Shown: one piece after another, positions 35,013 through 56,826 of the stretch
How positions within the stretch are numbered: position 1 is the stretch's first letter
Layout: the number at the start of each line of letters is the position of its first letter
NCBI GenBank assembly: GCA_913055605.1
Contig: CAJXKJ010000002.1
Location: 62,001-126,000, forward strand
Origin: an uncultured Euryhalocaulis sp.
Lineage (GTDB): Bacteria; Pseudomonadota; Alphaproteobacteria; Caulobacterales; Maricaulaceae
Length of the DNA stretch: 64,000 nucleotides
Direction: 5' to 3'
Program-made: the position numbers and the translations under genes
The notes under the pieces: generated by a model
Told to the model about the DNA's origin: nothing
What the model saw: only the letters and a program-made list of their open reading frames with translations
Databases searched by the model: none

Positions 35013-35685
35013 GACGCGCGCCCGGCGGGCGCAGCGCGGTTTCACCCTTGTCGAGGTGATGGCGGCGGGCGTGATCCTGTCGATCTTCGTGCTGGGCGTC
35101 AGCGGCCTGTGGCGCGCCTCGACCAACCAGGTCTCCGACCTGATGGTCCGCCAGAAGGCCGTCTTCGCCCTGAACGCGGAGATGGAGCGCCTGACCGCGC
35201 TCTACAGCTACACGACGTTCGGCGTGAACGGCCCGGTCAGCACGACCAATTATTCCGGCGGCCTGCTGCCGACCCACCGCCTGATCTATCCGCTCGACAT
35301 GGACGATTACATGGACGGGGACGACGACAACGATTTCGTCACCAGCTCCTTCTCGTCGTTCCGCGACGATTCCGAATTCCTCGTCTATGTCGACCGCAGC
35401 TACTGGACCTACAACAACCGCGCCTATGTCTGGCTCGACCGCGACAGGAACGTCGCCGCGCGCCTGTCCTGGATCACCAATGACATCAATGTCGTGTTCT
35501 GCATCGGGGCGGACAATTGCTCCTGCCACGATTTCGACGGCTCCAGCAGTCCGCTGTTCAAGGATTATTGCCGCTATCTGACCCTGTATCTGGAATATCC
35601 GTACCGCTCGGATTCCGACGGCGACATGACCGCCGGCCCGGGTCTGCAGTCGCTCTCGCTCAAGACCATCGTGGGCCGCCTGTGA
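34987..35685 (+). CDS. PilV-like minor pilin (GTG start)
   Basis: AQRGFTLVEVMAAGVILSIFVLGVSGLWRAS. Confidence 0.88.
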   Translation: MSRTPSPRKTRARRAQRGFTLVEVMAAGVILSIFVLGVSGLWRASTNQVSDLMVRQKAVFALNAEMERLTALYSYTTFGVNGPVSTTNYSGGLLPTHRLIYPLDMDDYMDGDDDNDFVTSSFSSFRDDSEFLVYVDRSYWTYNNRAYVWLDRDRNVAARLSWITNDINVVFCIGADNCSCHDFDGSSSPLFKDYCRYLTLYLEYPYRSDSDGDMTAGPGLQSLSLKTIVGRL

Positions 35686-36281
35686 GCCGCCGCGCCGCCC
35701 CCCGCGCCCAGCGCGGCTTTACGCTGTTCGAGCTGATGGCCGCTGTGACGATCAGCGCCGCGGTGCTGGCCCCCGCGATGGCGCTAATGTTCGCGGCCAT
35801 GGAATGGTCGACCCAGTCCGCCAGCCAGATCCGGCTGAACCAGCAGGCGCGCCTGATGCAGAGCGCGCTGATGGACGGCATGGCCACCACCTCCTCCGGC
35901 AAGGACGGCGTCAATTACGCCTACGGCCTGCGCGGCCGCGAAGAGGCGCCCAGCGGCAAGTGGAGCAACGGCTACACGCTGCGCTATCGCAGCAACAATA
36001 TCTGGGTCGAGGGCGACACGTTCACGACCATGACCGTGTCCTGCACCGATGTCGCCGATCCGCTGCCGGCCTGCTCCGGCCCCGGCGTCCAGCAGGTCGA
36101 CGGCTATCTGGCGCTGGAGCCCGAGGTGGAGGACGACGAGCGCAGCGTCGACGACCGCACGGTGGAGGTCACCCTCACCATCGTCGACCCGTTCGAGGCC
36201 CAGCGCCTGGAGAACCCGCGCGAGGTCACGGAGACCTATCGCCTGATCGCCACCATGATGCGCGACGAGAACGATCCATGA
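35682..36281 (+). CDS. PilW/PulJ-like minor pilin (GTG start)
   Basis: AQRGFTLFELMAAVTISAAVLAPAMALMFAAMEWS. Confidence 0.88.
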   Translation: MSRRAAPRAQRGFTLFELMAAVTISAAVLAPAMALMFAAMEWSTQSASQIRLNQQARLMQSALMDGMATTSSGKDGVNYAYGLRGREEAPSGKWSNGYTLRYRSNNIWVEGDTFTTMTVSCTDVADPLPACSGPGVQQVDGYLALEPEVEDDERSVDDRTVEVTLTIVDPFEAQRLENPREVTETYRLIATMMRDENDP

Positions 36282-36883
36282 GCCGGCAATCCGAACGCGG
36301 CAACGTGATCGCGGCGGTGACGGTGATCGGCGCCGCCAGCACGCTGGCTTTGTCCGCCCTGATGAACAATTCGGTGGGGATCGAGGCCCGCGCCATCGAA
36401 CAGAATCTGGCCGAGACCCGCGCCTATTGGGCGTCGATGGGCCATTTCCGCTACGCCATGGCCCGCACGCGCTACAGCGCGGCCTGCGGCCAGTGGTGGG
36501 GATGCGTGGAAAGCGAAACCGCGACCGACGCGATGAAGGCCGCGACGCTGAATTCCTATCTGGGCGAAATCTCGTCCCTGCGGACCTTCACCTATCCGGA
36601 GGAGGACAGCGACTATTTCCTGCGCCTGACCTTCACCGCCGCGCCGGACGAGGACCCCTCGCGCAAGGATTATAGCGGCTGGCTGAAAATCCGCAGCGCG
36701 CTGAACGGCGCGCAGGGCGACGTGCCGGTGCTGAACGATCTGGGCGACTCCATCCCCATGTACGAAATCCGCTTCTGCCTGGGCGAGGATCCGGGCGACG
36801 AGTGCGAAAAGATCAACAAGGACAATGGCGGGCGCTTCAAAAAAGGCGTCCAGGTGAACCGGTTCAGCCGCCTGCCGGGATAG
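36278..36883 (+). CDS. PilX/GspK-like minor pilin-like protein
   Basis: MSRQSERGNVIAAVTVIGAASTLALSALMNNSVG; position in minor-pilin cluster; ATGA-type overlap. Confidence 0.7.
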   Translation: MSRQSERGNVIAAVTVIGAASTLALSALMNNSVGIEARAIEQNLAETRAYWASMGHFRYAMARTRYSAACGQWWGCVESETATDAMKAATLNSYLGEISSLRTFTYPEEDSDYFLRLTFTAAPDEDPSRKDYSGWLKIRSALNGAQGDVPVLNDLGDSIPMYEIRFCLGEDPGDECEKINKDNGGRFKKGVQVNRFSRLPG

Positions 36884-36982: not shown

Positions 36983-37342
36983 ATGACGCCGGAAACCGCC
37001 ACGCCCGAAGGGGCCGAACAGCGCCGCGAACGCCGCTACAAGGTCGATCTGTGGGGGGAAATCCGCTTCGAGGACGGAGCGATCCCCGTCCGGATCGGCG
37101 ATCTGTCGGCCTCCGGCGCCTTTCTCTATATGGAAAATCCGCCCCCGCGCGGCTGCGTCGTCACCCTGCACATCCAGGACTACGGCGATATCGAGGTGGA
37201 GATCATGCACGCCTCGGATTCCTATTGCGGCGTGGCGATGAAGAATCCGGCGGCCCATCGCGGCCCGCTGCTGGAATGGCTGCGCCAGGAAGTGCTGGTC
37301 GACGCCGAAACCGGATGGGCGGCCCAGGCCGGACCCCGGTGA
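36983..37342 (+). CDS. PilZ domain protein (predicted c-di-GMP binding)
   Basis: RRERRYKVDLWGEIRF...GDLSASGAFLYM (RxxxR and DxSxxG). Confidence 0.9.
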   Translation: MTPETATPEGAEQRRERRYKVDLWGEIRFEDGAIPVRIGDLSASGAFLYMENPPPRGCVVTLHIQDYGDIEVEIMHASDSYCGVAMKNPAAHRGPLLEWLRQEVLVDAETGWAAQAGPR

Positions 37343-38163
37343 GCGAAGCGGCGCTTCTGACGGCGATCGTCCTGACATTCGCGGGCCTGACGGGCCTCGC
37401 GATCGGCAGTTTCCTGAACGTCCTGATCGCGCGCACCCCGCGCCTGATCGACGCCGCCGATGGCGGCGGCCCCGCCTATGTCCTGCGCGGCCTTGCCTGG
37501 CCGCCTTCGCAATGCGGCCATTGCGGCCAGCGCCTGTCCTGGCGCGACAATATCCCCGCCGCCTCCTGGCTGATCCTGCGCGGCCGCTGCCGCAACTGCG
37601 GGACCGCCTATGGCGCGCGCTATCTGTTTGTCGAACTGGCCGGGGCGGCCATCGCAATCACCGCCGCCGCCGCCTTCGGCCCGACCGGCCAGGCCGTGCT
37701 GATCGCTTTGTTCGGCATGGGGCTGCTGGCCCTGATCCTGATCGATCTGGAAGAACAATTGCTGCCGGACGTGATCGTCGCCCCGCTGCTGGCCCTCGGC
37801 CTTTTGTGGCAGGCGCTTTATGGCGCGGGTCTGGTCGACGGCCTGCTCGGCGCGGCGGCGGCCTTCGCCGTGCTGTGGGCGATCCGCGCGGCCTATAAGC
37901 TCTATGCGGGCGTCGAGGGGATGGGGTTCGGCGATCTGAAATTCGCCGCCATGCTGGGCGCCTGGACCGGCCTCGCCGCGATCCCGGCGGCGCTGTTCAT
38001 CGCCTTCGCCGCCGGCGCGGTGGTCAGCCTGACTTTGATGGTGCTTGGAAAGATGCGGCGCGATACGCCCGCCCCGTTCGGTCCGTTCCTGGCCGCTGGC
38101 GCGCTCGCCGTCCTGGCCGTTCCGGCCCTGCCCGCCGCGCTCGCGCGCCTCTCGGGCTTCTAG
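37339..38163 (+). CDS. pilD: Prepilin peptidase
   Basis: IGSFLNVLIARTPR, CGHCGQRLSWRDNIPAASWLILRGRCRNC, GMGFGDLKFAAMLGAWTG; GTG start at 37339. Confidence 0.95.
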   Translation: MSEAALLTAIVLTFAGLTGLAIGSFLNVLIARTPRLIDAADGGGPAYVLRGLAWPPSQCGHCGQRLSWRDNIPAASWLILRGRCRNCGTAYGARYLFVELAGAAIAITAAAAFGPTGQAVLIALFGMGLLALILIDLEEQLLPDVIVAPLLALGLLWQALYGAGLVDGLLGAAAAFAVLWAIRAAYKLYAGVEGMGFGDLKFAAMLGAWTGLAAIPAALFIAFAAGAVVSLTLMVLGKMRRDTPAPFGPFLAAGALAVLAVPALPAALARLSGF

Positions 38164-38170
38164 GCGGCGT

Positions 38171-39034
38171 CTAGTCCAGCGCGGCGGAGCGGCGCGGACC
38201 GTCCTCCAGCGGCGGCAGCGGAAAGACCTCCACCGGAATCGGCAGCAGCAGGCCCGACCACAACAGGCCGTCCTCCTCTCCGATTCCCGCCGTGTCGCGC
38301 AGATGGATCCCGTCCTCCGGCGCGGCTTCGGACACCACAACCGGCGCGGCGGGCGCGGGCGACGGCGCCAGGTCGTAATGCATCAGCACGCGCGACTGCG
38401 CGGCCATCGCCCCGTATTTATATTCCATGCGCACGTAATTCCGCGCCTCGGGGCTGTACCACCAGCGTTCGAAACCGGTCCAGTTGGAGTCCAGGCTGCG
38501 CGTGCGCCAGACGATGACCCAGCAATCGAACGTGCCCGCCGGCACGGTGATCTGGTCCCGCCCCTCCACCGACCAGGACGTGGCGTGCACCACCGTCTCG
38601 CCGTTCTTCAGATATTCGCGCTGGAAGGTCAGCGGCCGCTCCAGGCTCAGCTCCGTCCCCTCATAGGGGGAGATGGTGCGGTAGATCGACTGGCGGATGC
38701 CGTCCGGCCCCACCGAATCCTGCCGCAGGAACCCGAAGCGGGAGAACCACTGCCCCGGCGCGTCCAGCCGCTCGAACACGGTCAGCAGCCCGTTCGTCGA
38801 CGACACGCGGATATTATAGCCGTCGCTGTAGCGCCACTCGGAGCCCTCGCGCCATTGCGGCGCGGGCAGCACTTCCAGAGACGGTTCGGCCGCCGCCTGC
38901 GGCGTGATCGTGATGACCGGGAATTCCGTTTCCTGCGCCAGCGCCCCGGCCGCCGACAGGACCAGCACGGCGCCCGCCAGCAATCCGGTCCGCAGGCTGC
39001 GAGGCTTTCGGCTCTGGCGTGTGGTGCGGGTCAT
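38171..39034 (-). CDS. Secreted protein of unknown function at the 3' end of the pilus operon
   Basis: Signal peptide; TFQREYLKNGETVVHATSWSVEGRDQITVPAGTFDCWVIVWRTRS. Confidence 0.72.
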   Translation of the reverse strand: MTRTTRQSRKPRSLRTGLLAGAVLVLSAAGALAQETEFPVITITPQAAAEPSLEVLPAPQWREGSEWRYSDGYNIRVSSTNGLLTVFERLDAPGQWFSRFGFLRQDSVGPDGIRQSIYRTISPYEGTELSLERPLTFQREYLKNGETVVHATSWSVEGRDQITVPAGTFDCWVIVWRTRSLDSNWTGFERWWYSPEARNYVRMEYKYGAMAAQSRVLMHYDLAPSPAPAAPVVVSEAAPEDGIHLRDTAGIGEEDGLLWSGLLLPIPVEVFPLPPLEDGPRRSAALD

Positions 39035-39479: not shown

Positions 39480-41420
39480 TCACTCGTCTTCCGACATGAC
39501 GGTGACATCGACCGGCGTGGTCGCCCGGCGCATGTCCGGCGCGTCGGGGCCGTATTGCGTGGCCAGCACGCGCCGCTGCTGGTCGATATAGTCCTGCGAG
39601 CCGATGCGCACCGCGATGTCGTCCTGCAGCACGGCCTGCTCTGTCACCACGTGCGGGGTGATGAAGAAGATCGTCTCGCGCATCGATTCCGACTCGCTGG
39701 TCGTGCGGAACAGCGCGCCCAGGACCGGAATCTCCTTCAGGCCCGGAACCCCGCTTTCGCTGTCGATCCGCGTGCCGTCGAACAGGCCGCCGACCACATA
39801 GGTCGCCCCGTTCGGCACCAGCACATTGGTCTGCACTTCCTGCGAGGACACGTCGATCTGGCCGAACGAGCCGCTGCCCGGCGCGGAATTCTCCGCCCGC
39901 AGATCCAGCCGCACCAGCGATTCCGACTGCGCGGTCTCCGCTGGCACGATGGACGGCGTGATCTCCAGCGTCAGCCCGGTCTGGATTTCCTGCAGGCCCA
40001 CCCCGCCGGTGCCGCCGCCCTCCAGCCGCGTGTCGACCTGCACATAGATGTTCTGCGCCCGCGTGATGCGCGCGGTGATGTTGTCCAGCGTCACCAGGCG
40101 CGGCGCCGACAGGATGCGCACCCGGTCCTCGCTCGCCAGCGCGGTCAGCGAGGCCTGCAGCGCCGCCTCCTGCCCGCGCACGATGAAGGAGGCCGACGGC
40201 GCGAAATCGGGCAGCAGGTTCAGCGCGTCCAGCCCGTTGCTGTCGAACCGGTCGCTGCCGTCGGTCGGATTTCCGATCGGGCTGCCGGTCACCCCGCTGT
40301 CGAACCCGATACTGCCGGGCGTGGAGCCCGGATTGAGCAGCGAGCCGCGCAGCGCCAGGCCCAGCTGCCGCCCCACCCCGATATCGGCGTTGGCGATGAT
40401 GACCTCGATCTGGACCATCTGCAGCGGCCGGTCGAGCTGCAGGATCAGGCTGCGCACCTGTTCGATCTGCTCGCGCGAGCCCTGCACCACGACCGAATTG
40501 GTGCGCTGGTCGATGGAGATGCGCGGCGGCGGCTCATAGGCCGCGACCCACATGTTCGGATCGTCGCCCGAGCGCGCGCCCTGCACCATCGGCTCCTGCC
40601 CCATCAGCGCGTAGAGCGTGTCGGCGATGCCCGGCACCGTGACCTCCCGGCCCTGGAAGGTCCGGGTCGACGGGCCGACATTGGCGAAGCGCAGCGGGAT
40701 CACCTCGACCTCCTGCGGCGCCAGCACGACCGGCGGCGGGGCCGGCGCGGGCGGCGGCGCGGCGGCGGCGACCGGCTCGGGTCCGCCCTGCGGCCCGTCT
40801 TCCTGATCGGCCAGCGCCATCAGCAGGTCCGGCCGCATCGTGGTCAGCAGGCCGGTAATCCGGTTCACCCGCGCCCGGTCGCCGGAAATCGTGATGGTCT
40901 CGCCGAATGCGTCATAGGACACCCCGCCCAGACCGAGGCCCAGGCTGATCAGCGCCTCGCTCAGCTGGTCGTAGGATTCCTGGTCCAGCGGCAGCGACAC
41001 CTGCTGCTGCGCGAAATCGGCGGGCCCGGAGCGCGAGGTGACCATCACCGTCCGCGTCGTCGGGTCGTAGGTATAGGCCAGGTCGTATTGCTGGATCAGC
41101 TGGTCGAACGCGGTGGCGATCGGCACCCGGTCCAGCTGGAACGAGATCGGCCCCTGCACGTCCGGCCCGAACACGACCGACAGGCCGTTCGCCTGCAAAA
41201 TGCTGCGCAGCACGTTGCGGATGTCGTCGTTCGACGAGGTGCGGCTGATCACCAGCGTCGCGTTCCAGGGAATGTCGGAGCTCTGGGCCGGCGCGGCGGC
41301 CGGAACGGCCAGCGCCGTCGCCGCCAGCAGGGCGGCGGCCAGCGCCGCACGCGCCGCGCGTCCGCCTCTGTCCGCAGGGCGCAGCGCCCGTGCTGAACTA
41401 CGGTCCCCGCGCGCGCCCAT
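39480..41420 (-). CDS. Type IV pilus / MSHA-type secretin (PilQ/MshL-like)
   Basis: LSVVFGPDVQGPISFQLDRVPIATAFDQLIQQYDLAYTYD; VPNGATYVVGGLFDGTRIDSESGVPGLKEIPVLGALFRTTSESESMRETIFFITPHVV. Confidence 0.93.
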   Translation of the reverse strand: MGARGDRSSARALRPADRGGRAARAALAAALLAATALAVPAAAPAQSSDIPWNATLVISRTSSNDDIRNVLRSILQANGLSVVFGPDVQGPISFQLDRVPIATAFDQLIQQYDLAYTYDPTTRTVMVTSRSGPADFAQQQVSLPLDQESYDQLSEALISLGLGLGGVSYDAFGETITISGDRARVNRITGLLTTMRPDLLMALADQEDGPQGGPEPVAAAAPPPAPAPPPVVLAPQEVEVIPLRFANVGPSTRTFQGREVTVPGIADTLYALMGQEPMVQGARSGDDPNMWVAAYEPPPRISIDQRTNSVVVQGSREQIEQVRSLILQLDRPLQMVQIEVIIANADIGVGRQLGLALRGSLLNPGSTPGSIGFDSGVTGSPIGNPTDGSDRFDSNGLDALNLLPDFAPSASFIVRGQEAALQASLTALASEDRVRILSAPRLVTLDNITARITRAQNIYVQVDTRLEGGGTGGVGLQEIQTGLTLEITPSIVPAETAQSESLVRLDLRAENSAPGSGSFGQIDVSSQEVQTNVLVPNGATYVVGGLFDGTRIDSESGVPGLKEIPVLGALFRTTSESESMRETIFFITPHVVTEQAVLQDDIAVRIGSQDYIDQQRRVLATQYGPDAPDMRRATTPVDVTVMSEDE

Positions 41421-41502
41421 GCGAATCATCCCCCCGCCAGTCAGGCTGGAAGAATACCGCATTTTGTGGCGCCGCAGGAAAAGACCGGCTGATTTAGTGC
41501 AG

Positions 41503-42306
41503 TTAGCTGTGGAGTTCGCAGAGCACGGCAGTGAGATTGTCGCGCCCGCCGCGCTCCAGCCCCAGCGAGATCAGCGCATCGCCCGCCGCCTCCATGGAGG
41601 CGCGATGATCGGCCAGCACGGTCTCGATCTCTTCATTGTCCATTTCGCCGCACACCCCGTCGGTGCAGATCAGCAGACGGTCGCCGGTGTCGGGGAAGAA
41701 GCTGTGCAGGTCGGGCTTCACCCGTTCGGACACGCCCAGCGCCTGCAGGATATATTTCTGCGACGGCGCCTCGCCGATCTCGCCGCCGCGGCGCCATTCC
41801 TCATAGGCCGAATGGTCCCGCGTCATCTGCAGCAGGCGATAGCCGCGCACGCGGTACACCCGGCTGTCGCCGACATGGAAGACCGTGGCGAAGGAGTCCG
41901 CGCCCAGCGGCGCCCAGACCCCGGCGATGGTCGCGCCGCTGCGCAGGCGCCGCTCGACCCGCCCGACATTGTGCGCCCGGATCCGGTCGTGCGCCGCCGC
42001 GATGGCGCGCCGCACATGGTTTTCGCGCGCCAGCCGCGCGGCGGCGTCGATGCCGTCCTGCAGGCCGTGCGTCATCGCGTCGTTCAGGCATTCGGCGAGA
42101 CACGCCACCGCCTCGCGGCTCGCCTGCCCGCCGCCCAGATGGCCGCCGACCCCGTCGGCGACGACCGCAAGCCCGATCTCGCCATGGACCAGCCAGGAAT
42201 CCTGGTTTTCCTTCTGCACGCGCCCGGCGTGCGTGACGCCGTAGGCGGTGAACCGCGCCGCCGGAACGATCTCGCCAAGCGTCAGTGTCTTGTCCATGAC
42301 AGTCAT
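41503..42306 (-). CDS. PP2C-family Ser/Thr phosphatase
   Basis: GRVQKENQDSWLVHGEIGLAVVADGVGGHLGG...VFHVGDSRVYRVRG...LLICTDGVCGEM...GGRDNLTAVL. Confidence 0.95.
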   Translation of the reverse strand: MTVMDKTLTLGEIVPAARFTAYGVTHAGRVQKENQDSWLVHGEIGLAVVADGVGGHLGGGQASREAVACLAECLNDAMTHGLQDGIDAAARLARENHVRRAIAAAHDRIRAHNVGRVERRLRSGATIAGVWAPLGADSFATVFHVGDSRVYRVRGYRLLQMTRDHSAYEEWRRGGEIGEAPSQKYILQALGVSERVKPDLHSFFPDTGDRLLICTDGVCGEMDNEEIETVLADHRASMEAAGDALISLGLERGGRDNLTAVLCELHS

Positions 42307-43100
42307 CCGCGGTCCGCCAGCGTGTAGCGGAAGCCGACCGTGTATTGCCGCTCGCCGTCGGGGCCGGTTTCGCCCAGCGTCACGGTGTCCTCGTCGATCG
42401 TCTGCACCACGCGGCCGTCGATCCGGTCGCCGACGCGATAGTCGCGGTTGTCGATCGTCGCGATGCGCATGTCGCCGATCTGCGACACGCCCGTCAGGTG
42501 ATGCACCCAGGTGAGGTCGGCTGAGCCCGCTTCCGGGCGCCAGGACACCATGCCATTCCAGGCGCCGAACGGGTTGCGCGGCGGCTGTTCGCGCAGCGCC
42601 GCCTCGAACTGCACCGCATCGGCAAAGCTGTGCGCCGGCGGCAGATCGCTTTCGCGGAACGCCAGGGACAGGGGCAGCAGGCCGTTCGGCCCGGGCCCGC
42701 CCAGCTCCATCTCCACGATCTCCACCGACAGGCTCTCGAACCGGGCCAGGAAGCGGATCAGGTCGGAATAGGAGCCTTCAAGGCTCAGGCGGAACGTCTC
42801 GGACCCCGGCGCCAGCGGCGCCAGCTCGGTCAGGCGCACCTGAACGTTCACCGCGATCTCCTGCGCCCGCGCCATCAATTGGGGGACGGTCAGGTCGATC
42901 GCCCGGCCGGAAATCTCTTCGGTCGCGCCGGCCGCCGCCGCCGCGTTCTCGCGCTCGGCGCGCAGCGCCGCCATCATCTGCGACAGCTCGCGCGCGGCCT
43001 CTTTCTTCGGCGCCACATGGGCGGCCCAGACATAGCCCTGCGCCGCGATGGCCAGCACGGCCAGCGCAACGCCCAGAACGATTGCGTGAATCCGGGTCAT
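42303..43100 (-). CDS. PilO/MshJ-like pilus biogenesis protein
   Basis: N-terminal TM, coiled coil, IRFLARFESLSVEIVEMEL; position after PilMN; overlaps neighbours by 4 bp. Confidence 0.75.
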   Translation of the reverse strand: MTRIHAIVLGVALAVLAIAAQGYVWAAHVAPKKEAARELSQMMAALRAERENAAAAAGATEEISGRAIDLTVPQLMARAQEIAVNVQVRLTELAPLAPGSETFRLSLEGSYSDLIRFLARFESLSVEIVEMELGGPGPNGLLPLSLAFRESDLPPAHSFADAVQFEAALREQPPRNPFGAWNGMVSWRPEAGSADLTWVHHLTGVSQIGDMRIATIDNRDYRVGDRIDGRVVQTIDEDTVTLGETGPDGERQYTVGFRYTLADRG

Positions 43101-44914
43101 TCGCCGTCCTCCCGGATCGCCAGCACGGTGAAGCGCGCGCCCGCCACATCCTGTTCGTCCGGCGCGCCGACGCCGCCGAACTCCACGCGCGGGAAGGCGG
43201 TGGCGAAGACGCTGTCCTTGTCCAGCCGGTCGATAAAGCCCGCGACCAGGCGCAGATCGCCCCCGGCCTCCTCGGGCAGCAGCCCGTCCAGCTGCAGCAC
43301 GCGCTGGCCGCTGTTGGTGTCCTCGCCGCTGTTCAGCGTCATGCCGGTCAGCCGCATGCCGGGCAGCATCGCCCCGCCGATCGACACCATGTTCTGCGCC
43401 CAGGACGCGCCGCGCGCGCCGGCCAGCGTCGGTCCGGCGGTCTCGGTGGCGTCCGATTGCGCGGACAGTTCGGCGACCAGCGTTCCATAGGCCGCGCTGC
43501 GCCGGTCCAGCGTCTTTTGCGCCGGGCCGATCACGTAATTGACGTTCAGGATCACGGCCAGCACCGCCGCGGCGGCCACGAAGAAGGCCGGCGCGATCCA
43601 GGCCGGCCGGCCCGGCGCGTCGTCGCCGTCACTGTCCTTGCGCAGCGCGGAGAATTTGCTCATCAGGCCGCCCTCCTCTTCTGCGCGCGCGGTCTTCTGA
43701 TCGGCACCGTTGCGGCGGTTGGCGGCGCGCCGGTTGCGCGGCGGGTCGGCCCGGCGGAACGCGCCGTTTTCGAACTGATAGGGCTCGTTGCCGGCCTTCA
43801 ACAGGCCGGACCGGACGCCTTCCAGAAGGTTCAGCGCGTGGGCGGACTCCATCGCCCCGTCCAGCACCGGCTCGCGCGCGTCGACCGGCAGGCCCAGCGC
43901 GTCGGACAGGAACTGGTCCAGCCCGGCCAGCGGCGGCCCGGTGAACTCCAGGTCCAGCTTCGCGGGCCGGTCGGCATAGCGTTCGAACTGGTAGTATTCG
44001 AGCGTCGCGGCCACTTCCGAATAAAGCTCGCGCTGGAACGGCGCCAGCGCCGTCAGACCCAGCGTGCGGTGCTCGGGCGGCAGTTCGGGCGACAGCACGG
44101 CCTCCACCGGCGCGAAGCGCACCCGTTCGGACAGCGCCGTGCAGGCCCGGTCCAGCGGCAGGCCGAACGCCCGCGCATAGCGCGATGCGGCGGTCAGCGC
44201 CCCCACCGGCACCTGGCGGGACGTGATCACTCCGCTTTGCGGCGTGTACAGCGTAATCGTCGAGAAATAGCCGTGGACGCGGACCGACATCGCGGCCTCG
44301 TCGCCGGCGTCCAGCGCCGGCGCGCCGGCCGGGGCGACCAGTTTCAGCGCCGTGGCCTTCGCGCCCAGCGGGAAGAACAGCGCCTCCATCCGCTCTTCGG
44401 GCAGATAGGCGATGGCGCGCCGCTCCAGCTCCTTCGCCCCGGTCTCGCCATAGGGGCGGGAGCTGAACACGACGGGCCGGCCGCCGCTCTGCTGCACGCC
44501 GAACTGGCGCAGGGCGCGCGGCTCGAAATTCGACAGCTTCGCGGCGCGGTGATCGGTCAGATACAGGTCCGGATCGTCCACCAACATCAGCACGCTGGTG
44601 ATGTTTTCCTCCAGCAGCGGCGTCCCCATCGGGGCCGACGCCGCGGCATGGGCCAGCGCGTGGGTCGGGTCGGCGCCGTCGCGGTCGACGCACAGGAAGC
44701 GGTGCGCCTGCGCCTTCACCTGTCCGGCGCGGTCCAGCAGCGCCAGGCGGTAGCCGACATCGCTGACGCTGATGACCAGCGCCAGCTCCTCGCCGGAATG
44801 GCCGTCATTCGAATTGCGCGCGCCCTCGCCGGAGAACGCGCCGATCAGCCGGGCGCCCAGCGAGCCCAGATCCTGGTTCGCCCAGGCCGGAAGGATGTGT
44901 TCGAGCTTGCGCAT
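43097..44914 (-). CDS. PilM-PilN-like fusion protein
   Basis: N-terminal actin-like/PilM region, then APAFFVAAAAVLAVILNVNYV TM segment and PilN-like domain (GAMLPGMRLTGMTLNSG..LQLDGLLPEEAGGDLRLVAGFIDRLDK). Confidence 0.78.
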   Translation of the reverse strand: MRKLEHILPAWANQDLGSLGARLIGAFSGEGARNSNDGHSGEELALVISVSDVGYRLALLDRAGQVKAQAHRFLCVDRDGADPTHALAHAAASAPMGTPLLEENITSVLMLVDDPDLYLTDHRAAKLSNFEPRALRQFGVQQSGGRPVVFSSRPYGETGAKELERRAIAYLPEERMEALFFPLGAKATALKLVAPAGAPALDAGDEAAMSVRVHGYFSTITLYTPQSGVITSRQVPVGALTAASRYARAFGLPLDRACTALSERVRFAPVEAVLSPELPPEHRTLGLTALAPFQRELYSEVAATLEYYQFERYADRPAKLDLEFTGPPLAGLDQFLSDALGLPVDAREPVLDGAMESAHALNLLEGVRSGLLKAGNEPYQFENGAFRRADPPRNRRAANRRNGADQKTARAEEEGGLMSKFSALRKDSDGDDAPGRPAWIAPAFFVAAAAVLAVILNVNYVIGPAQKTLDRRSAAYGTLVAELSAQSDATETAGPTLAGARGASWAQNMVSIGGAMLPGMRLTGMTLNSGEDTNSGQRVLQLDGLLPEEAGGDLRLVAGFIDRLDKDSVFATAFPRVEFGGVGAPDEQDVAGARFTVLAIREDGE

Positions 44915-44923
44915 CGGCGGCCC

Positions 44924-47146
44924 CTAAGCGCTCGAGACCAGCGGAACGCGCGGCTTTCCGGACGCGGCGCTGGCGCCCGGCGGCGGCGGGCACGCGGTGA
45001 ACCGCACGCCGCCCACCTCGATCTGCACGTTCACCGGCATCGGCGCGCGGCGATGGAACGCCAGGCCGCCGATCATCGCCGGACCGGCGCCGTCCGGCGT
45101 GATCCAGTAGCCGCCTTCGTCATATTCGATATGCGCGACCGAATCCGCCGTCGCGCTGTCGGCCTGCAGCGCGCAGTCCGGCGCGGCGCCCAGTGTGATG
45201 CGCGAGCCCAGCACGATCCAGCGGCGGCGGGTCTCCTCCGCCCAGCTCGACCAGCGGATTTCCGCCGCGGCCTTCTCGATCTTCGCCTCGTCCACCGTGA
45301 AGCGCGCCAGCACCGCGTCCGGGTCGCGCTTGCCGCGGATCAGGCGCAGCGCCACCGGCGGACAGGAGTCCGGGTCGCGCCCGATGCGCAGCTCGCTGGT
45401 CCCCTCGGGCAGCAGCTCGGCCTGGCCGGCCTCCAGCGGGACGCCGTTCATCAGATTGCCGTTGGTGCTGCCCAGATCCTCGACCAGCCAGTCGCCGTTG
45501 CGGGCATAGACGCTCAGATTGCGTTCGCCGCGGGAGAACCAGCGGCAATTGGTGGCGATGTCGACCGCCCCGCCGGCCGCGCCGCGGCCCACGACTGCGG
45601 GTTTTCCGGCGATCAGGCGTACCGGGTCGCCGCCCTCGATATCCAGATCGACCGGGCTGGCGGCCAGAAGCTCGCGCTCCAGCAGCCGCTCCAGCTGGGC
45701 CAGACGGTCCGCCACGGTCGGGCTGGACGCCTTGCTCTCCAGGCACAGCCGCGCCTCGTGACAGGCGGCCAGCGCCTCCAGCGGCTTGCCCTTCATCACC
45801 AGGCTGGGGATGCGGCGCACGACTTCGTGCACCGGGTCCAGCGACGGATCGGGGAAGGACGCGTCCGGGTCGATCACCAGCGTCTCGTCGGCTTCCGGCG
45901 CCGCGGCGATGATCTCGGACAGCAGCGCCTGGATGACGCCGATCTTGGAGTTGGACGGGGCGACCACGGCCTGGGTCCGGTCGGTCAGCGACCCAGCCCG
46001 CCGCGACCATTCCTCGAAAAAGGCCGGGATGCGGTCGGCCGTCATCGGACGGCTGATGAAATAGCCCTGGGCGTAATCGCAGCCGAAAGAGCGCAGCTGT
46101 TCGAACGCCTGCTCGGTCTCCACGCCCTCGGCCACGACCTTCAGCCCGATGCGCCGCGCCATCGACGCGGTCGTCTCGATCAGGGCGCGCGCCTCCTCGC
46201 TGTCGGCGAGGTCCATGACGAAGCTCTTGTCCAGCTTCAGCTCCCCGAAGGGCAGCTTGTAGAGATTGGCCAGCGACGAGAAGCCGGTGCCGAAATCGTC
46301 GATGCTGAGCGTGAAGCCCTTCAGCCGCAGCCGGGTCAGCACGTCCAGCGCCGCGCTGTTCTCCGCGCCCATCGAGCTTTCGGTGATCTCCAGCGTCACG
46401 TCTTCGGGCGAAACGCCGAATTCCTCGCAGCGCTCCAGGAACTGCGTGCTCCAGACATTGTCGTTCAGCAGCAGCGGCGAAACATTGATCGCGGCGACCA
46501 GATGCAGGCCCGCGGCGCGCCAGGCGGCGAGGTCCGCGAACACCTGACGGGTGACGGAGTCGGTCAGCTGCTGGATCAGGCCGCTATTCTCGGCGACCGA
46601 AATGAACTGGTCGGGATAGACGTCGCCCAGCTCCGGATGGCGCAGACGCACCAGCGCCTCGACGGAATAGCGGGGCTCCGACGGCGGATCGAACGGCACC
46701 TTGGGCTGGTATTCCACGCGCAGGAAATTCTGCTCGATACTGTCCTGCAGATTGGTCGCGGTGATGTCCGTCCGGTCCTTCGGCGCCTCGGCCAGGCAGG
46801 CTTTCAGCGTGTCCTCGTCGAACTTGTCGTTGCGCACGACCCGGACGTTGAATTGTTTGGATCGGGCCAGCCGCTCGGTCGACTGGGCGGTCTTGGCGTC
46901 CAGCCCGGTGACGATCAGCACCGCCGCCTCCGGCGCCGCCGTGCACAGCTTTTCGATCAGCTCGAAACCGCCGCCGGCGCGGCCGACCACGTCCACGACA
47001 ACCGCCTTCACGTCGCCCTTGGCCAGCGCCTCGTCCAGCGCGGCCGGCGAATCCAGGCGCAGCGCGTCCATCTTCATGCGCGCGGCGCACGCCGCAGCGG
47101 TATCCGCGACGCCAGAATCGTCGTGCAGGATCGCAATCTTAGGCAT
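44924..47146 (-). CDS. REC-EAL-FHA signalling protein (c-di-GMP phosphodiesterase)
   Basis: REC-like N-terminus; EAL with VEALVR, AINVSP, EITESS, IDDFGTG, KLDKSF, VAEGVET; FHA with VVGRG...LVEDLGSTNGNLMNGV and a second FHA-like segment. Confidence 0.93.
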   Translation of the reverse strand: MPKIAILHDDSGVADTAAACAARMKMDALRLDSPAALDEALAKGDVKAVVVDVVGRAGGGFELIEKLCTAAPEAAVLIVTGLDAKTAQSTERLARSKQFNVRVVRNDKFDEDTLKACLAEAPKDRTDITATNLQDSIEQNFLRVEYQPKVPFDPPSEPRYSVEALVRLRHPELGDVYPDQFISVAENSGLIQQLTDSVTRQVFADLAAWRAAGLHLVAAINVSPLLLNDNVWSTQFLERCEEFGVSPEDVTLEITESSMGAENSAALDVLTRLRLKGFTLSIDDFGTGFSSLANLYKLPFGELKLDKSFVMDLADSEEARALIETTASMARRIGLKVVAEGVETEQAFEQLRSFGCDYAQGYFISRPMTADRIPAFFEEWSRRAGSLTDRTQAVVAPSNSKIGVIQALLSEIIAAAPEADETLVIDPDASFPDPSLDPVHEVVRRIPSLVMKGKPLEALAACHEARLCLESKASSPTVADRLAQLERLLERELLAASPVDLDIEGGDPVRLIAGKPAVVGRGAAGGAVDIATNCRWFSRGERNLSVYARNGDWLVEDLGSTNGNLMNGVPLEAGQAELLPEGTSELRIGRDPDSCPPVALRLIRGKRDPDAVLARFTVDEAKIEKAAAEIRWSSWAEETRRRWIVLGSRITLGAAPDCALQADSATADSVAHIEYDEGGYWITPDGAGPAMIGGLAFHRRAPMPVNVQIEVGGVRFTACPPPPGASAASGKPRVPLVSSA

Positions 47147-47259
47147 TTCGGCGTTTTCGCCTTTTTAACCCCACCAAGGGGCGGGATCATGCGCCCGCAC
47201 CGGGAAACACCGGGTTAAAATCGCTGCACAGCGGGCGCCCGCAGGCGCCGGAAACAGCG

Positions 47260-48303
47260 TCAGGTGGAGACGCCGGAAATCTCGAAAACCGGCAGGAACG
47301 CGGCGATCAGCATGCCGGCGATCAGCGCCCCGATCACCGACGTCATGATCGGGTTCATCAGGGAGATCGCGGCGTCCAGACGCTGCACCCACAGGCTCTC
47401 GAAATAGTTCGCGACAGAGCGCAGCGGCTCGGACAGCTCGCCGGTCTTTTCCCCGGCGGAGATCATCTGCTGCACCACGCCCTGGAACAGTTTGTGGCGG
47501 GCGAAGGCCTGGGCGATGCCCTTGCCGTTCTCGATCTCGTCGGCGACCGCGTACAGGCTCTGCTCGACGAATTTATTGTTGCTGGCCGGCGCGGCGACGC
47601 GGATCGCGTCGATCAGCGAAACCGCGTTCTGCACCTGAATGCTCAGCGTGTGGGCGAAGCGCGCCAGCGCCTCCAGCCGCCACAGCGAACCCAGAACCGG
47701 CACCTTCAGCTTCCAGGTGTCGATCGTCATGCGCCCGGATTCGGTGCGCGACCACAGGATCCAGCCCAGCACCGCCAGGCCGATCCCGCCGAAAATGTAT
47801 TGCCAGGACGAGGAATACAGGTCGCCCAGCCCCAGCACCGCGCGCGTCGGCGCCGGCAGCGGCCGGTCGAACTGGCTGAACAGCTTCTCGAACCGGGGCA
47901 GGATGCCGAACACCATGGCGTGGAACACGCCGACCAGCGCCATTAGCAGCACGCCCGGATACAGCATCGCGGTGCGCACTTTTTTGCGCACATGGTCCAG
48001 CCCGGTCAGATAGTTGCCGATCTCGTGCAGCGCCTGTTCCAGCTGGCCGGTCTGCATGCCGGCGCGCACCACGCCCACATAGGTGGAGTTGAAGATGCGC
48101 GGGTGGTCGGCCAGCGCCCGGTCGAACTCCAGCCCGGTGCGCACCTTGTCCAGGATGTCGCTGATGGCGTTGCGGAACCGGCCTTTCGGCGCCTCGCGCG
48201 ACAGGCTTTCCAGCGCCTGCACCAGCGGCAGGTTGGACCGCACCATGGCGGAAAACTGCTTGGTGAAGATCAGCAGTTCGGAACTGGAGGCGCCGCCTAT
48301 CAT
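47260..48303 (-). CDS. PilC/GspF/MshG-like inner membrane platform protein
   Basis: FTKQFSAMVRSNLPLVQALESLSREAPKG...MISAGEKTGELSEPLRSVANYFE. Confidence 0.95.
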   Translation of the reverse strand: MIGGASSSELLIFTKQFSAMVRSNLPLVQALESLSREAPKGRFRNAISDILDKVRTGLEFDRALADHPRIFNSTYVGVVRAGMQTGQLEQALHEIGNYLTGLDHVRKKVRTAMLYPGVLLMALVGVFHAMVFGILPRFEKLFSQFDRPLPAPTRAVLGLGDLYSSSWQYIFGGIGLAVLGWILWSRTESGRMTIDTWKLKVPVLGSLWRLEALARFAHTLSIQVQNAVSLIDAIRVAAPASNNKFVEQSLYAVADEIENGKGIAQAFARHKLFQGVVQQMISAGEKTGELSEPLRSVANYFESLWVQRLDAAISLMNPIMTSVIGALIAGMLIAAFLPVFEISGVST

Positions 48304-48313
48304 GGCTCCGCCC

Positions 48314-50494
48314 TCACGCGTCCCCGAACACGCGGATCAGCTCGGAGAAGGTCGTGCGGCCTTCCTCGACCAGCGCCATGCCGTTCTGGATCATCGTGGT
48401 GAAGCCGGCCTGGTGGGCCAGCTTGCGCAGCTCGTCGCTGTCGAAATGCTCCGACACGATCAGCTTGCGCATGTCGGTGCTGACCGGGACCATTTCGAAC
48501 ACCGGCTGGCGGCCGGAATAGCCGGTATGGCGGCAGTGCGGACAGCCGGTCGGCTGCACCACCGGCATGTTGTCGTCGATCTCGATGCCCATGCGCTCCA
48601 GCTTTTCCAGGCTGACGCCCTCGTTGCGGAGCTTGCGCATGATCTCGCGCCCCTCGACCAGCGTGGAGCACTGGTTGCAGGTCACCCGCACCAGGCGCTG
48701 CGACAGGGTCAGGGACAGCGCCGCGGCGACCAGATACGGGTCGATCTTCATGTCCAGCAGGCGCGTGATGACGCTCAGGCAGTCATTGGCGTGGATCGTG
48801 GAGAACACGACGTGGCCGGTCAGGGCGGCCTGAACCGCCATGTGGCCGGTCTCGCGGTCGCGGCACTCCCCGACCATGATGACGTCCGGGTCCTGACGCA
48901 GCACGGTGCGCAGGCCGGCGGCGAAGGTCAGGTTGATCTTGTCGTTCACCTGCATCTGGTGAACGCCGTTCAGCCGGTATTCGACCGGATCCTCGATGGT
49001 CACGACATTGCGCTGCACGCGGTCGACCGCGGTCAGGAAGGAATACAGCGTCGTGGTCTTGCCGGAGCCGGTCGGCCCGCCGATCAGGATCAGGCCGTGC
49101 GGCGCGTTGATCTTGTCCAGGATGGTGCGCAGGTTCGAGTCGCGCAGGCCGAGCTGTTCCGGGCTCGGGCGCAGCGCCGTCTCGTCCAGCAGGCGCATCA
49201 CGACCTTCTCGCCCAGCACCGTCGGCAGGGTGGAGACGCGGACGTCCAGCGGCGATTTGCGGATCATCACGCTGATGCGGCCGTCCTGCGGGCGGCGGCG
49301 CTCGGCCACGTCCATCTGGGCCAGCACCTTGATGCGCGACACCACCGCCGAATGCAGCTCCAGCGGCATCCGGCTTTCCTCGTGCATCAGGCCGTCGATC
49401 CGGGCGCGGATCAGCATCCCGTCCTCGGTCGGCTCGATATGGATGTCGGAGGCTTTCTGGTTCTGGCAGCGCTGCAGGATGTAATCCACGATCAGCGGCA
49501 CGTCGGCCGTAAGCGGCTGGTCCAGCAACATGTTTTCCTGCTGCCAGGACACGTCGATCGGCACGAAATTCTCGTCGCCCCGGCGCGGCGCCTCGACCCG
49601 TGTCTTCAGCCCCGCCAGCACCTCGTAGAACACTTCGGGCAGCACCACGACCGGCTCCACCGGCCGGCCGGTCTGGCCGCGCAGCCAGTCGCGCAGCACC
49701 AGGTCGAACGGGTCCAGCATGGCGCAGGGCGCGCGCTCGGCCCCGGCCTCGGATTTCAGCAGCAGCACGCCGCGCGTGTCGGCGCATTTGGCGTCCAGCC
49801 ACTCCACTTCCTCGATGGCGGAGGCCAACTCGTCGCGCGTGGCGATGAAGCGCATGCCCTCCTGCTCGGCCAGCACCCGGTACAGGCTGGCGTCGGAGGC
49901 GGCGTGGCCGTCGGCGGCCAGCGCCTGGAAAAAGGTCACGCCCTGTTCGCGGGCGCGCAGGGCGATGGACACCGCGTCGCGCTCCAGCAGCGCGCTGGAG
50001 GCGACCAGCCGCCGCGCGACCGGACCCAGAACGCCGCCGCCATTGTCTTCGGGCCTGGCGGCCCCGGCGCCGCCCGCGGCGCCGCGCGCCTGGATTTCCT
50101 TCAGGTCGGACAGGCGGCGGATGACCGAGCCGTCCTCGGCCCAGGCCGCCGGCAGCGGCCGCTCGGTCTGCACCGGCGGCTGCGCCGCGTCCTCCACCGT
50201 GGTGATCTTCGGCGCCGGCGCCGGATCGCCCAGCGCGGAGCCCAGCGTCACGTCGTCGCCGACCACGACCGTCGCGTCGTCCTCGGCCTGCGAGGTCTGC
50301 GTCGTCTGCGTGGGCCGCGCCGGCGCGGGTTCGGCGCCGCCGTCCAGCACCACCGTGGCGTCGTCGCTCTCCGCCTGCGGCGCAGGCGCGTCATCGCCCA
50401 GAACGACCGTGGGGTCGTCTTCGGCGGCGGCCGATGCCTCGTCGCCGAGGACGATCGTGGCGTCGTCGTCGTTTTTGGGTTTGGGGGCGGCCAT
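48314..50494 (-). CDS. PilB/GspE/MshE-like pilus assembly ATPase with repeat-containing N-terminal tail
   Basis: Walker A ILIGGPTGSGKTTTLYSF, VTIEDPVEYRLNGVHQMQVN, CNQC...CPHC; N-terminal DDATIVLGD repeats. Confidence 0.96.
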   Translation of the reverse strand: MAAPKPKNDDDATIVLGDEASAAAEDDPTVVLGDDAPAPQAESDDATVVLDGGAEPAPARPTQTTQTSQAEDDATVVVGDDVTLGSALGDPAPAPKITTVEDAAQPPVQTERPLPAAWAEDGSVIRRLSDLKEIQARGAAGGAGAARPEDNGGGVLGPVARRLVASSALLERDAVSIALRAREQGVTFFQALAADGHAASDASLYRVLAEQEGMRFIATRDELASAIEEVEWLDAKCADTRGVLLLKSEAGAERAPCAMLDPFDLVLRDWLRGQTGRPVEPVVVLPEVFYEVLAGLKTRVEAPRRGDENFVPIDVSWQQENMLLDQPLTADVPLIVDYILQRCQNQKASDIHIEPTEDGMLIRARIDGLMHEESRMPLELHSAVVSRIKVLAQMDVAERRRPQDGRISVMIRKSPLDVRVSTLPTVLGEKVVMRLLDETALRPSPEQLGLRDSNLRTILDKINAPHGLILIGGPTGSGKTTTLYSFLTAVDRVQRNVVTIEDPVEYRLNGVHQMQVNDKINLTFAAGLRTVLRQDPDVIMVGECRDRETGHMAVQAALTGHVVFSTIHANDCLSVITRLLDMKIDPYLVAAALSLTLSQRLVRVTCNQCSTLVEGREIMRKLRNEGVSLEKLERMGIEIDDNMPVVQPTGCPHCRHTGYSGRQPVFEMVPVSTDMRKLIVSEHFDSDELRKLAHQAGFTTMIQNGMALVEEGRTTFSELIRVFGDA

Positions 50495-50504
50495 GGTCTG
50501 CGCC

Positions 50505-52094
50505 CTAGGCTTCGAACGCGATGCGGAAGCCGAGATCGGCGCGGCGCTCGCCGGCCGGGGCGCGATGGCGGAAGCCGCAGCGCCCGGTCATGGACGGGCT
50601 ATCGAAGCCGCCGCCGCGGATCGCGCGCATGTCCGGCCCGCCCTCGGCGACCGGGTCCTGCGCGTCCGCGGGCATGGATTTCAGATAGGCGTCGTCCCAC
50701 GGGTCGGCGCACCATTCCCAGACATTGCCGCAGAAATCGCTGAGGCCCCATCCGTTGTCGCCGGTGGGATAGGCGCCGACCGGCGTCGGCGCGGCGCATA
50801 CCCCGTCGATATTGGCCTGGCTGTTCAGCGGACGCGCCTCGCCCCAGGGCCAGGCGCTGTCGGCCGCCCCGGCGCGCGCGGCCGCTTCCCATTCCATTTC
50901 CGTGGGCAGGCGCCCGCCCGCCCATTTGGCGTAGGCGCTGGCGTCTTCCCAGCTGACCATGACGACCGGCTGGTCGTCGGCGGCGAAGCGCGGATGGCCC
51001 ATCAGGGCCGGCGCGGCGTAGCCGGTCGCCTGCAGGAAGGCGCGGTACTGGGCGTTGGTCACCGGCGTGCGCGCGATGCGGAAGGCCGACAGGCGCACCT
51101 TGCGGTGCGGCTGGTCGCAGGCGCGCAGCGCGCCGCCGCGCTCGCCCACGGGCCAGGCGCCTTCGGGAACCGCATAGGCGTCCTCGCGCAGATCGGCCGA
51201 CTTTTCGCCATGGGCAAACGGGTCGCGCAGGCGCACGCGGTCCAGGATCGCCCCGGCCTCGGCGGCGGTCTGGGGCCGCTTGTCCGGGTCGTGATCCAGC
51301 ATCTGCAGGACCAGCCGGTCCAGTTCGGGCGGCAGCGCGGCGCAGAAGGCGCTCGGCGGCGCGATGTCCTCGGGCCGGAAGACCGGCAGCGCGCCGGTGC
51401 GCGCGGCGTCCTTCAGGCTGCACGGCGGGATATGGCCGCCGGTCAGAAGCTCATAGGCGATCATGCCCATCGCATAGATGTCGGCGCGCCGGTCCACCTC
51501 GTCGGGGGTCAGCAGCTGCTCCGGCGCCATGTATTTCGGCGTGCCGCCCTGCAGCGCGGAGGCCGCGTCCTGCTCGGGCAGGGAGCTCAGGCCGAAATCC
51601 ATCACGATCGGCTGGGCGATGTCGTTGTTCTTGATGAAGACGTTGGCCGGCTTCAGGTCGCGGTGCGTGATCTGGGAGTGCGCGAAGTCCAGCGCCGCGG
51701 TCAGCTTGCGCAGCACCGTCATGCGCTGCTCGATGGTTTCCAGAAGGCGGCTGTCATGGGCCTGCATCCAGGCCTTCAGGTCGGACCCTTCGATCAGGTC
51801 CATCACGATGCCGACGCCCTGCGGGCCTTCGTACAGATCGTGGATCGCGCAGATATTCGGGTGGCGCAGCTTGCGGGAGATCAGGACTTCCCGGCGAAGC
51901 GAGGCGACATAGCGGGTGTCCCCGGCATGCACCTGTTTGAGGATTTTGATGGCGAGCGGAACGCCCAGCTCGCTGTCATAGACCTTGAAGACGTCGGCGG
52001 ACCCGCCGCGACCGATCAGGCTCCAGTCAGAGAAGCGATCGGCAGGCGCGCTGCGCCCGCCTGCCGATTCTGCCTCAACCCCTGTGCGCTGCAT
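50505..52094 (-). CDS. Ser/Thr protein kinase with C-terminal SUMF1/FGE-like domain
   Basis: IGRGGSADVFKVY, LAIKIL, ITHRDLKPANVFI, MDFGLS, YMAPEQ; then TPVTNAQYRAFL..WAGGRLPTEMEWEAAAR..NVWEWCADPW..RGGGFD..RHRAPAGERRADLGFRIA. Confidence 0.95.
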   Translation of the reverse strand: MQRTGVEAESAGGRSAPADRFSDWSLIGRGGSADVFKVYDSELGVPLAIKILKQVHAGDTRYVASLRREVLISRKLRHPNICAIHDLYEGPQGVGIVMDLIEGSDLKAWMQAHDSRLLETIEQRMTVLRKLTAALDFAHSQITHRDLKPANVFIKNNDIAQPIVMDFGLSSLPEQDAASALQGGTPKYMAPEQLLTPDEVDRRADIYAMGMIAYELLTGGHIPPCSLKDAARTGALPVFRPEDIAPPSAFCAALPPELDRLVLQMLDHDPDKRPQTAAEAGAILDRVRLRDPFAHGEKSADLREDAYAVPEGAWPVGERGGALRACDQPHRKVRLSAFRIARTPVTNAQYRAFLQATGYAAPALMGHPRFAADDQPVVMVSWEDASAYAKWAGGRLPTEMEWEAAARAGAADSAWPWGEARPLNSQANIDGVCAAPTPVGAYPTGDNGWGLSDFCGNVWEWCADPWDDAYLKSMPADAQDPVAEGGPDMRAIRGGGFDSPSMTGRCGFRHRAPAGERRADLGFRIAFEA

Positions 52095-52134: not shown

Positions 52135-52722
52135 CTATTCCTCGCCGGCGCAGGACGTACAGGTCGCGGTGGCCGCGCCCGCAGCGGAGCAATAGCCGCC
52201 GGCCGTCGCGCCGGTCAGGTCGGTTTCCCCGTTGATGTAGGGAATTCGGTTCATCTTGCCGTCCCAGCCAGCGGCGCTGGTGGAGGCGCTGGACCACAGG
52301 ACCATGCCGCCCTCGACGGACGCGCCGTCCAGGCCGGTGGCCGTGATGCAGTAGACCACCTCGCCGGTCAGCGGGCCGCCGGTGGCGACGATCGCGTCCA
52401 CTTCGTATTCGAAGCTGGAGCCCGGATTGGCTTCGATGGTCGGGATAAGGGCGGTCAGCGTGCCCGTGCCGTCCGGCTCGACGGTCAGACCGTCGACTTC
52501 GGCCTGCACATCGGCCGCCGACTTCAGCTGCGACTGCGCATAGCCGTCCAGGCCGGCGATGATCTTGCCGGCGGTCTGGGACACTTCAGCGGTCGAGCTG
52601 GTGCGGACATACGTGAAGAGGCGCGGAATACCCACCGCGGCCAGAATTCCGATGATGGTCACCGCGACCATCAGTTCAACGAGGGTGAAGCCTCGCTGCT
52701 TGCGCTTGGACGTCGGTTGCAT
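52135..52722 (-). CDS. Type IV major-pilin-like prepilin
   Basis: KQRGFTLVELMVAVTIIGILAAVGIPRLFTYVRTSSTAEVSQTAGKIIAGLDGYAQSQ. Confidence 0.93.
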   Translation of the reverse strand: MQPTSKRKQRGFTLVELMVAVTIIGILAAVGIPRLFTYVRTSSTAEVSQTAGKIIAGLDGYAQSQLKSAADVQAEVDGLTVEPDGTGTLTALIPTIEANPGSSFEYEVDAIVATGGPLTGEVVYCITATGLDGASVEGGMVLWSSASTSAAGWDGKMNRIPYINGETDLTGATAGGYCSAAGAATATCTSCAGEE

Positions 52723-54852: not shown

Positions 54853-54885
54853 CGACCTGGCGGCCTGACCCTCTCCCCGTTCTCC

Positions 54886-55929: not shown

Positions 55930-56003
55930 ACCCCTCGCCGGTCCCGTTTCTGTGCAAGCGGAACGCCGGGAAAAAGTTCCCCGCTCTCGACCTCGGCGTC
56001 CAA

Positions 56004-56822: not shown

Positions 56823-56826
56823 CGCG

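Follow-up and report, generated by a model that had tools for sequence, protein, structure and literature searches.

The pilus locus and its signalling genes

The window, the whole stretch of 64,000 nucleotides analysed here, comes from an uncultured Euryhalocaulis sp. (genome G000, 3.16 Mb) and contains a type IV pilus locus into which genes for a Ser/Thr kinase, a PP2C-family phosphatase and an EAL-FHA protein are built. Together with a repeat-bearing tail on the assembly ATPase PilB, these genes probably form a dedicated threonine-phosphorylation switch for this one pilus; the probability of this reading is put at roughly two in three. The genes lie in a single run on the minus strand: (i) major pilin, (ii) kinase-SUMF1 protein, (iii) PilB, (iv) platform protein PilC, (v) EAL-FHA protein, (vi) PilM/N-like protein, (vii) PilO/P-like protein, (viii) PP2C phosphatase, (ix) secretin, (x) a short gene and (xi) a DUF3108-like gene. 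Neighbouring genes overlap slightly or are separated by no more than 113 bases. A prepilin peptidase, a PilZ protein and minor pilins adjoin the run on the plus strand. Prepilins, peptidase, ATPase, platform protein and secretin, the hallmarks of a type IV pilus or type II-like machine, thus surround the signalling genes, and the pilus locus is nearly complete. A preliminary description of this DNA had given the same gene order and coordinates for the operon, and the run proves longer than it stated. Its domain calls for the kinase-SUMF1, PP2C and EAL-FHA proteins are upheld by Pfam.

A repeated threonine motif at the N-terminus of PilB

The assembly ATPase (48314..50494, minus strand) is of the PilB/GspE type, scoring 447–475 bits against PilB/GspE models versus 58 bits against the TadA model; Pfam detects T2SSE (405 bits) and MshEN (28 bits). 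TIGR02538 aligns with the protein only from residue 160, so that some 155 residues precede the conserved part. This extension carries four DDxT[IV]V[LV] repeats (50261..50470), DDDATIVL, DDPTVVL, DDATVVL and DDATVVV, with T13, T29, T47 and T75 as candidate phosphorylation sites. Shuffled tails would be expected to hold 0.06 such sites (p = 0.0002). The codon pattern for DDxT[IV]V is found five times in the window, against 0.02 expected, and six times in the 3.16 Mb genome, four of these in the PilB tail. The other two genomic matches lie in GroEL and in a metallo-beta-lactamase-like protein whose N-terminus is signal-like. A looser form of the motif occurs within the operon only in the PilB tail, at T422 in the linker of the EAL-FHA protein, and at the C-terminus of the secretin, where a cytosolic kinase is not expected to reach it. 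The four repeats had been noted earlier; the fifth site, T422, had been missed.

Among the window and its relatives, the N-terminal parts of PilB contain 50 matches to [DE]xT[VIML][VLMIF] in 3,321 residues, compared with 12 in the 30,751 residues that make up the PilB core, kinase, PilC, PilM/N and secretin (odds ratio 38.6; Fisher 2.5e-39, a pooled value that is overstated because the sequences are related and the repeats duplicate). Taken one by one, 12 of 15 tails are enriched at p ≤ 0.0008 in composition-preserving shuffles, which give 0.01–0.23 expected sites where up to nine are observed. In L052 the tail carries nine strict repeats, which are of the DxDATVVRPR type. In fourteen PilB/GspE ATPases unlinked to such a kinase, the N-terminal extension is short or absent, and one site occurs in their 7,710 residues. 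The clusters' FHA-bearing proteins hold 11 sites in 3,749 residues, mostly adjoining the FHA domain. The tails of the window and of its close relative L043 align poorly (32 identities), and the sites are kept in both. Around the threonine, the window and its relatives conserve acidic residues at −4 to −2, alanine at −1 and hydrophobic residues at +1 and +2.

Kinase, phosphatase and FHA protein

The kinase-SUMF1 protein (50505..52094, minus strand) combines a Ser/Thr kinase domain (approximately residues 25–276; Pfam Pkinase, 143 bits) with a SUMF1/FGE-like domain (residues 308–526; FGE-sulfatase, 175 bits). Kinase residues K50, E69, H144-R145-D146, K148, N151 and D166-F167-G168 are invariant in 14 relatives. 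The protein has no strong transmembrane segment (highest 19-residue hydropathy 0.88). By inspection, the first Cys of the catalytic pair is missing where it would be expected in the SUMF1 segment IRGGGFDSPSMTGRCGF; a formylglycine-generating role is therefore unlikely. The domain may bind a ligand. The phosphatase (41503..42306, minus strand) matches Pfam PP2C_2 with 48.6 bits and an Stp1/IreP-like model with 146 bits, the latter under that model's cut-off.

The EAL-FHA protein (44924..47146, minus strand) consists of a receiver-like fold, an EAL domain, a linker containing T422, a first FHA domain (FHA1) and a degenerate second one, an arrangement defined from Pfam, the orthologues L043 and L045, and structure models. 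The EAL domain (46046..46753; 221 bits) is predicted to be a phosphodiesterase, as it retains the catalytic residues E163 (of the EAL motif itself), N221, E256, D283-D284, K304, E340 and Q360, whose roles are familiar from EAL enzymes in general. The linker site A-D-E-T422-L-V-I (45872..45892) has a conserved counterpart, DDATIVL, in L043 and L045. FHA1 (45362..45628) is weak by sequence alone in the window (22.8 bits; cut-off 20.7) and scores 44.4 bits in L043. The model of this region is an FHA sandwich with a mean predicted local distance difference test (pLDDT) score of 75 and FHA1 strands at about 85–94; Foldseek matches it to the FHA structures of GarA, FhaA, OdhI, Rad53 and DgcB. A profile of FHA domains from the window and its relatives finds FhaA (TB39.8) at 1e-14 and GarA at 5e-13. 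The phosphothreonine-pocket set GR...SR...N is kept (G520-R521, S538-R539, N562-G563) and conserved in relatives; the window's FHA1 lacks the His of the usual SRRH motif. On its pocket residues, FHA1 is a predicted phosphothreonine binder. In the model, a second FHA-like sandwich follows (44987..45229), its pocket residues lost, and a tandem layout recurs in cyclase-FHA proteins of L048.

The protein had been described as REC-EAL-FHA. Its EAL and FHA domains stand, and the receiver is seen as a fold: residues 1–120 are modelled with five alternating strands and helices, the one use made of a poor full-length model (mean pLDDT 56). The receiver match lies under the Pfam cut-off (13.9 versus 30.2 bits), and L043 has a Glu where the window protein has D52, which makes receiver phospho-signalling doubtful; the domain may be a pseudo-receiver. 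When 150 genomes of the order were queried with the full-length protein, EAL paralogues appeared everywhere and no full-length relative emerged.

Relatives of the locus

Scanning with an alignment of two kinases recovered the full-length relatives L043–L059 (40–62% identity), and further loci came from whole genomes. Many of these are metagenome-assembled genomes (MAGs) with cut contigs, and some N-termini may be too long because the start was taken as the first ATG, GTG or TTG. Of the 19 loci that show which gene follows the kinase gene, 18 have pilB immediately downstream of it (window, L043, L045–L055, L057, L059, L136, L139 and L150). The hosts of kinase-PilB loci are Alphaproteobacteria, Magnetococcia and one gammaproteobacterial MAG. 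Kinase and PilB trees agree on the window's clade, in which the window, L043 and L045 are grouped with support. The L045 contig (DHXL01000163.1) is titled Oxalobacteraceae, and its PilB is almost identical to that of the alphaproteobacterial L043; the title is probably a binning or naming error.

FHA domains occur in three arrangements. In nine loci (L048, L050–L054, L057, L059 and L136), the FHA is fused to the N-terminus of PilB, followed by the repeats. Because of these many fusions, the FHA appears to work at the motor. Elsewhere it is encoded in trans: on REC-EAL-FHA proteins in the window, L043 and L045, or on another enzyme, namely a histidine kinase in G239 (L039/L047) and G342 (L171) and, as a tandem, a nucleotidyl cyclase in L048, whose PilB has its own FHA too. 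The L048 tandem-FHA genes are an adjacent pair (L048:909-4006) by the FHA-PilB locus, and their linkers carry the sites ADETILADP and SEDVTVLD. In one of the two, Pfam recognizes a domain of class III nucleotidyl cyclases; the other is cyclase-like by inspection alone. In G342, although the genes lie apart on different contigs, histidine kinase-FHA and PP2C, kinase and PilB, PilM/N and PilO/P are all present. There the histidine kinase-FHA gene is directly followed by PP2C (L171:3676-5696), unlinked to motor genes, and has a site, EDDLTVMDD, ahead of its FHA. Near the Magnetococcales pilus locus of L052 (2472-5650 and 15394-15984), one gene encodes a cyclic-nucleotide-binding Ser/Thr kinase and another an FHA protein that has four strict sites as well as a hydrophobic segment; a third product, a small one, begins with DEDDTTR repeats.

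The preliminary description had made co-occurrence of the genes across genomes a test of its proposal, and such co-occurrence is found: among the 386 genomes of the class, searches with the kinase and with the PilM/N-like protein lead to the same three. In one search of genome contigs, the PilM/PilN-like query found no relatives. FHA matches number exactly one each in G000 and G239, both in the pilus operon, and none was found in the eight family relatives searched; G551, which holds L139, has eight elsewhere in its genome. The system is present in 3 of 386 genomes of the class, 8 of 399 of the phylum and 7 of 48 of Magnetococcia, a scattered distribution that suggests transfer or loss.

The relatives are the strongest evidence for the predicted switch. 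Comparative genomics supports the view that the kinase, the tail, the FHA and PP2C are parts of one system and that the FHA acts at the ATPase, as had been proposed; the EAL/c-di-GMP part of that proposal is not general, since it is confined to one small clade.

A proposed switch and its alternatives

The mechanism may be outlined as follows. (i) The cytosolic kinase, perhaps tuned by a ligand of its SUMF1 domain, would phosphorylate the [DE][DE]xT[hydrophobic]2 sites of the disordered PilB tail, and also the linker site of the FHA protein. (ii) The FHA would dock on the phosphorylated tail, carrying its cargo to the motor. (iii) In the window this cargo would be the EAL enzyme, lowering cyclic di-GMP (c-di-GMP) beside the motor and the PilZ protein and so changing the motor; in relatives it would be a histidine kinase, a nucleotidyl cyclase, or nothing where the FHA is part of the motor. 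(iv) PP2C would reset the switch. Phospho-T422 may occupy the FHA in cis, as in GarA, OdhI and DgcB. What the sequences show directly is the gene content, the motif enrichment, the co-occurrence, the FHA-PilB fusions and the intact catalytic and binding residues; phosphorylation, docking, the direction of the effect and its c-di-GMP consequence are inferred, and the motor may be either activated or inhibited.

The c-di-GMP arm is lineage-specific and unproven. Two 24-residue motifs of the RLGxx(L/V/I)2xxG... type define c-di-GMP binding by MshEN domains (PMC5013675). Even in the published relaxed form, they are absent from PilB of the window and of 15 relatives. The preliminary description had named MshE/PilB-type ATPases and EAL proteins as links between pili and c-di-GMP; with the motif missing, the ATPase itself was rejected as the sensor, and c-di-GMP would need to act through the PilZ protein (36983..37342) or elsewhere. 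The EAL-FHA arrangement is confined to the window, L043 and L045. Because other lineages place a histidine kinase or a cyclase on the FHA, c-di-GMP looks like an interchangeable output and not the core of the switch. Whether the system is best seen as a modular platform is evenly balanced: a phosphothreonine tail written by the kinase would be read by FHA adaptors with interchangeable enzymes (phosphodiesterase, histidine kinase or nucleotidyl cyclase), the FHA-in-motor form being an ancestral or alternative state. If so, the same pilus would be wired to different second-messenger or two-component outputs in different lineages.

Several observations weigh against a phosphothreonine switch at the motor. 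Its support comes from sequence throughout, with phosphorylation sites, docking and pilus effect all predicted, and the pooled motif statistics count related sequences as independent. Strict motifs are missing from the L046 and L055 tails, and the L049 tail has a single one. No FHA is seen beside kinase-PilB in L046, L049, L055 and L139, several of these contigs being cut. PP2C was not detected by BLAST with two queries in the fetched Magnetococcales loci. A kinase copy in L056, the second in one MAG, is not beside pilB; this kinase-SUMF1 gene (L056:9833-11632), from a Rhodospirillales MAG, lies ahead of DUF58 and transglutaminase-like genes. The missing MshEN motifs count here too. Finally, the +3 residue is L or V in the window and R, A, E or S in relatives. 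The preference of FHA domains at pT+3, on which FHA docking had been argued, therefore fails to generalize, and the +3 residue was rejected as a family-wide specificity code; the conserved pattern looks more like a kinase signature than FHA +3 specificity.

Three alternatives were considered. The most durable, doubtful in its own right, makes the EAL-FHA protein a c-di-GMP receptor or scaffold like FimX with PilZ and PilB, phosphorylation controlling docking only. It is a variant of the output and compatible with the proposed switch. The FimX-PilZ-PilB precedent (PMC8389850, PMC11656802), a FimX receiver domain that likewise has no Asp, and the PilZ gene in the window cluster speak for it; the complete set of tested EAL catalytic residues and the absence of a GGDEF domain speak against it. 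Somewhat less probable is a self-switch like that of GarA, OdhI or DgcB, in which the kinase mainly modifies the T422 region, the FHA binds its own linker and so switches the EAL domain, and the PilB tail, as a substrate in its own right, affects the motor through nothing but its charge. Such an arrangement would account for the T422 site kept in L043 and L045 and for DETIF, DLTVM and DETIL sites adjoining the FHA in histidine kinase-FHA and cyclase-FHA proteins. GarA, OdhI and DgcB are among the best solved relatives of the FHA, and in DgcB the N-terminal tail, once phosphorylated, activates the protein to which it belongs (PMC6733907). Alone, a self-switch explains neither the fusion of the FHA to PilB in front of the repeats nor the strong increase in the number of sites in the PilB tail. 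That the tail is a passive acidic disordered spacer, binding basic platform proteins for example, with incidental threonines and a kinase that targets other proteins, would suit the D/E content of the tails (10–22%) and the lack of strict sites in L046 and L055, and is very improbable given the shuffling results, the absence of extension and sites in the 14 kinase-less ATPases, and the recurrence of sites beside FHA domains in other cluster proteins.

The remaining genes of the locus

The major pilin (52135..52722; N_methyl in Pfam) is the first gene of the minus-strand run. Downstream of PilB on the same strand are the PilC/GspF platform protein (47260..48303; T2SSF), a PilM/PilN-like fusion (43097..44914) with a weak pilM match (23 bits), a hydrophobic segment near residue 438 and conservation in relatives, and a PilO/P-like protein (42303..43100) recognized by position and homology with relatives. 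The secretin (39480..41462, minus strand) scores 133 bits, and the DUF3108-like gene (38171..39034, minus strand) is a partner conserved in most relatives. On the plus strand lie the prepilin peptidase (37342..38163; A24_N_bact and Peptidase_A24), the PilZ protein (37.8 bits), with its RxxxR (RRERR) and DxSxxG (DLSASG) motifs intact, and minor pilins with a short PilX-like gene (34374..36883); N_methyl is present in three of these, and the group is syntenic in G239.

No PilT retraction ATPase was identified in G000 by a PF00437 search, which returned GspE, the window PilB and one untyped ATPase (509-aa frame, C14:23990-24811); twitching is therefore an unsafe readout. Trehalose-phosphate synthase- and phosphatase-like, MscS-like channel and glycoside hydrolase 15-like genes, assigned by inspection, adjoin the pilus locus at 53200-58599. 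A compositionally foreign origin of the module was considered and rejected, as GC is 65–72% throughout with no clear break.

Comparison with known systems

Type IV pilus control has so far been described in terms of c-di-GMP, PilZ, FimX and two-component systems. The exact combination found here was not known to the preliminary description, and the literature searched, which covers few subscription journals, likewise holds no matching account of FHA or kinase control of PilB. Neither FHA nor a phosphatase comes up in the 2024 review of PilB cofactors (PMC11656802), and the kinases in the passages found there are histidine or sensor kinases. The FHA-PilB fusions point to a pilus switch, of an on/off or docking kind, not described before.

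GarA and OdhI share an acidic Thr motif N-terminal to a structurally similar FHA; they are inhibitors of metabolic enzymes and not pilus or c-di-GMP proteins. In DgcB of Bdellovibrio (FHA-GGDEF; PMC6733907), the FHA reads phospho-Thr in a disordered tail and thereby controls a c-di-GMP enzyme. That enzyme is a cyclase and not a phosphodiesterase, the tail is on the same protein, the kinase is unidentified and no pilus is involved. The FimX-PilZ-PilB and PdeK-PdeR systems (PMC8389850, PMC11656802) bring an EAL protein with a receiver-like domain, a PilZ protein and PilB together on one pilus, without FHA, Ser/Thr kinase or phosphothreonine. FimX has a REC-PAS-GGDEF-EAL architecture; the window protein has neither PAS nor GGDEF, and its EAL residues are intact.

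The CpaF/TadA class III ATPases (PMC12019362) have an FHA followed by an intrinsically disordered region ahead of the pilus ATPase, as in the nine fusion-bearing relatives. They belong to the Tad ATPase family, and kinase, PP2C and repeat motif are not described in the part of that report available. The window PilB falls outside the class, with 58 bits against the TadA model and its FHA in trans.

A close functional parallel is the threonine phosphorylation pathway (PpkA/PppA/Fha) of the type VI secretion system (T6SS), in which a dedicated Ser/Thr kinase, a PP2C and an FHA protein are co-encoded in the locus of an envelope machine. In Agrobacterium, Fha docks on phospho-TssL of the T6SS (PMC3953482). 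The window machine is instead a type IV pilus, and the putative acceptor is a motor ATPase with multiple repeats. Its kinase is cytosolic with a SUMF1 domain, and FHA domains of this kind sit on EAL, histidine kinase, cyclase or motor. The neighbours are pilus genes in the window and relatives, T6SS genes elsewhere in the genome not having been searched for; the window system works like the T6SS pathway and is no member of it. If the reading holds, a Ser/Thr kinase-FHA-PP2C loop on the assembly ATPase would be a further layer of type IV pilus control, parallel to the T6SS pathway, and the swapped output domains on FHA together with the FHA-PilB fusions would give a concrete, testable prediction of the way in which signalling enzymes are kept at the motor of a pilus.

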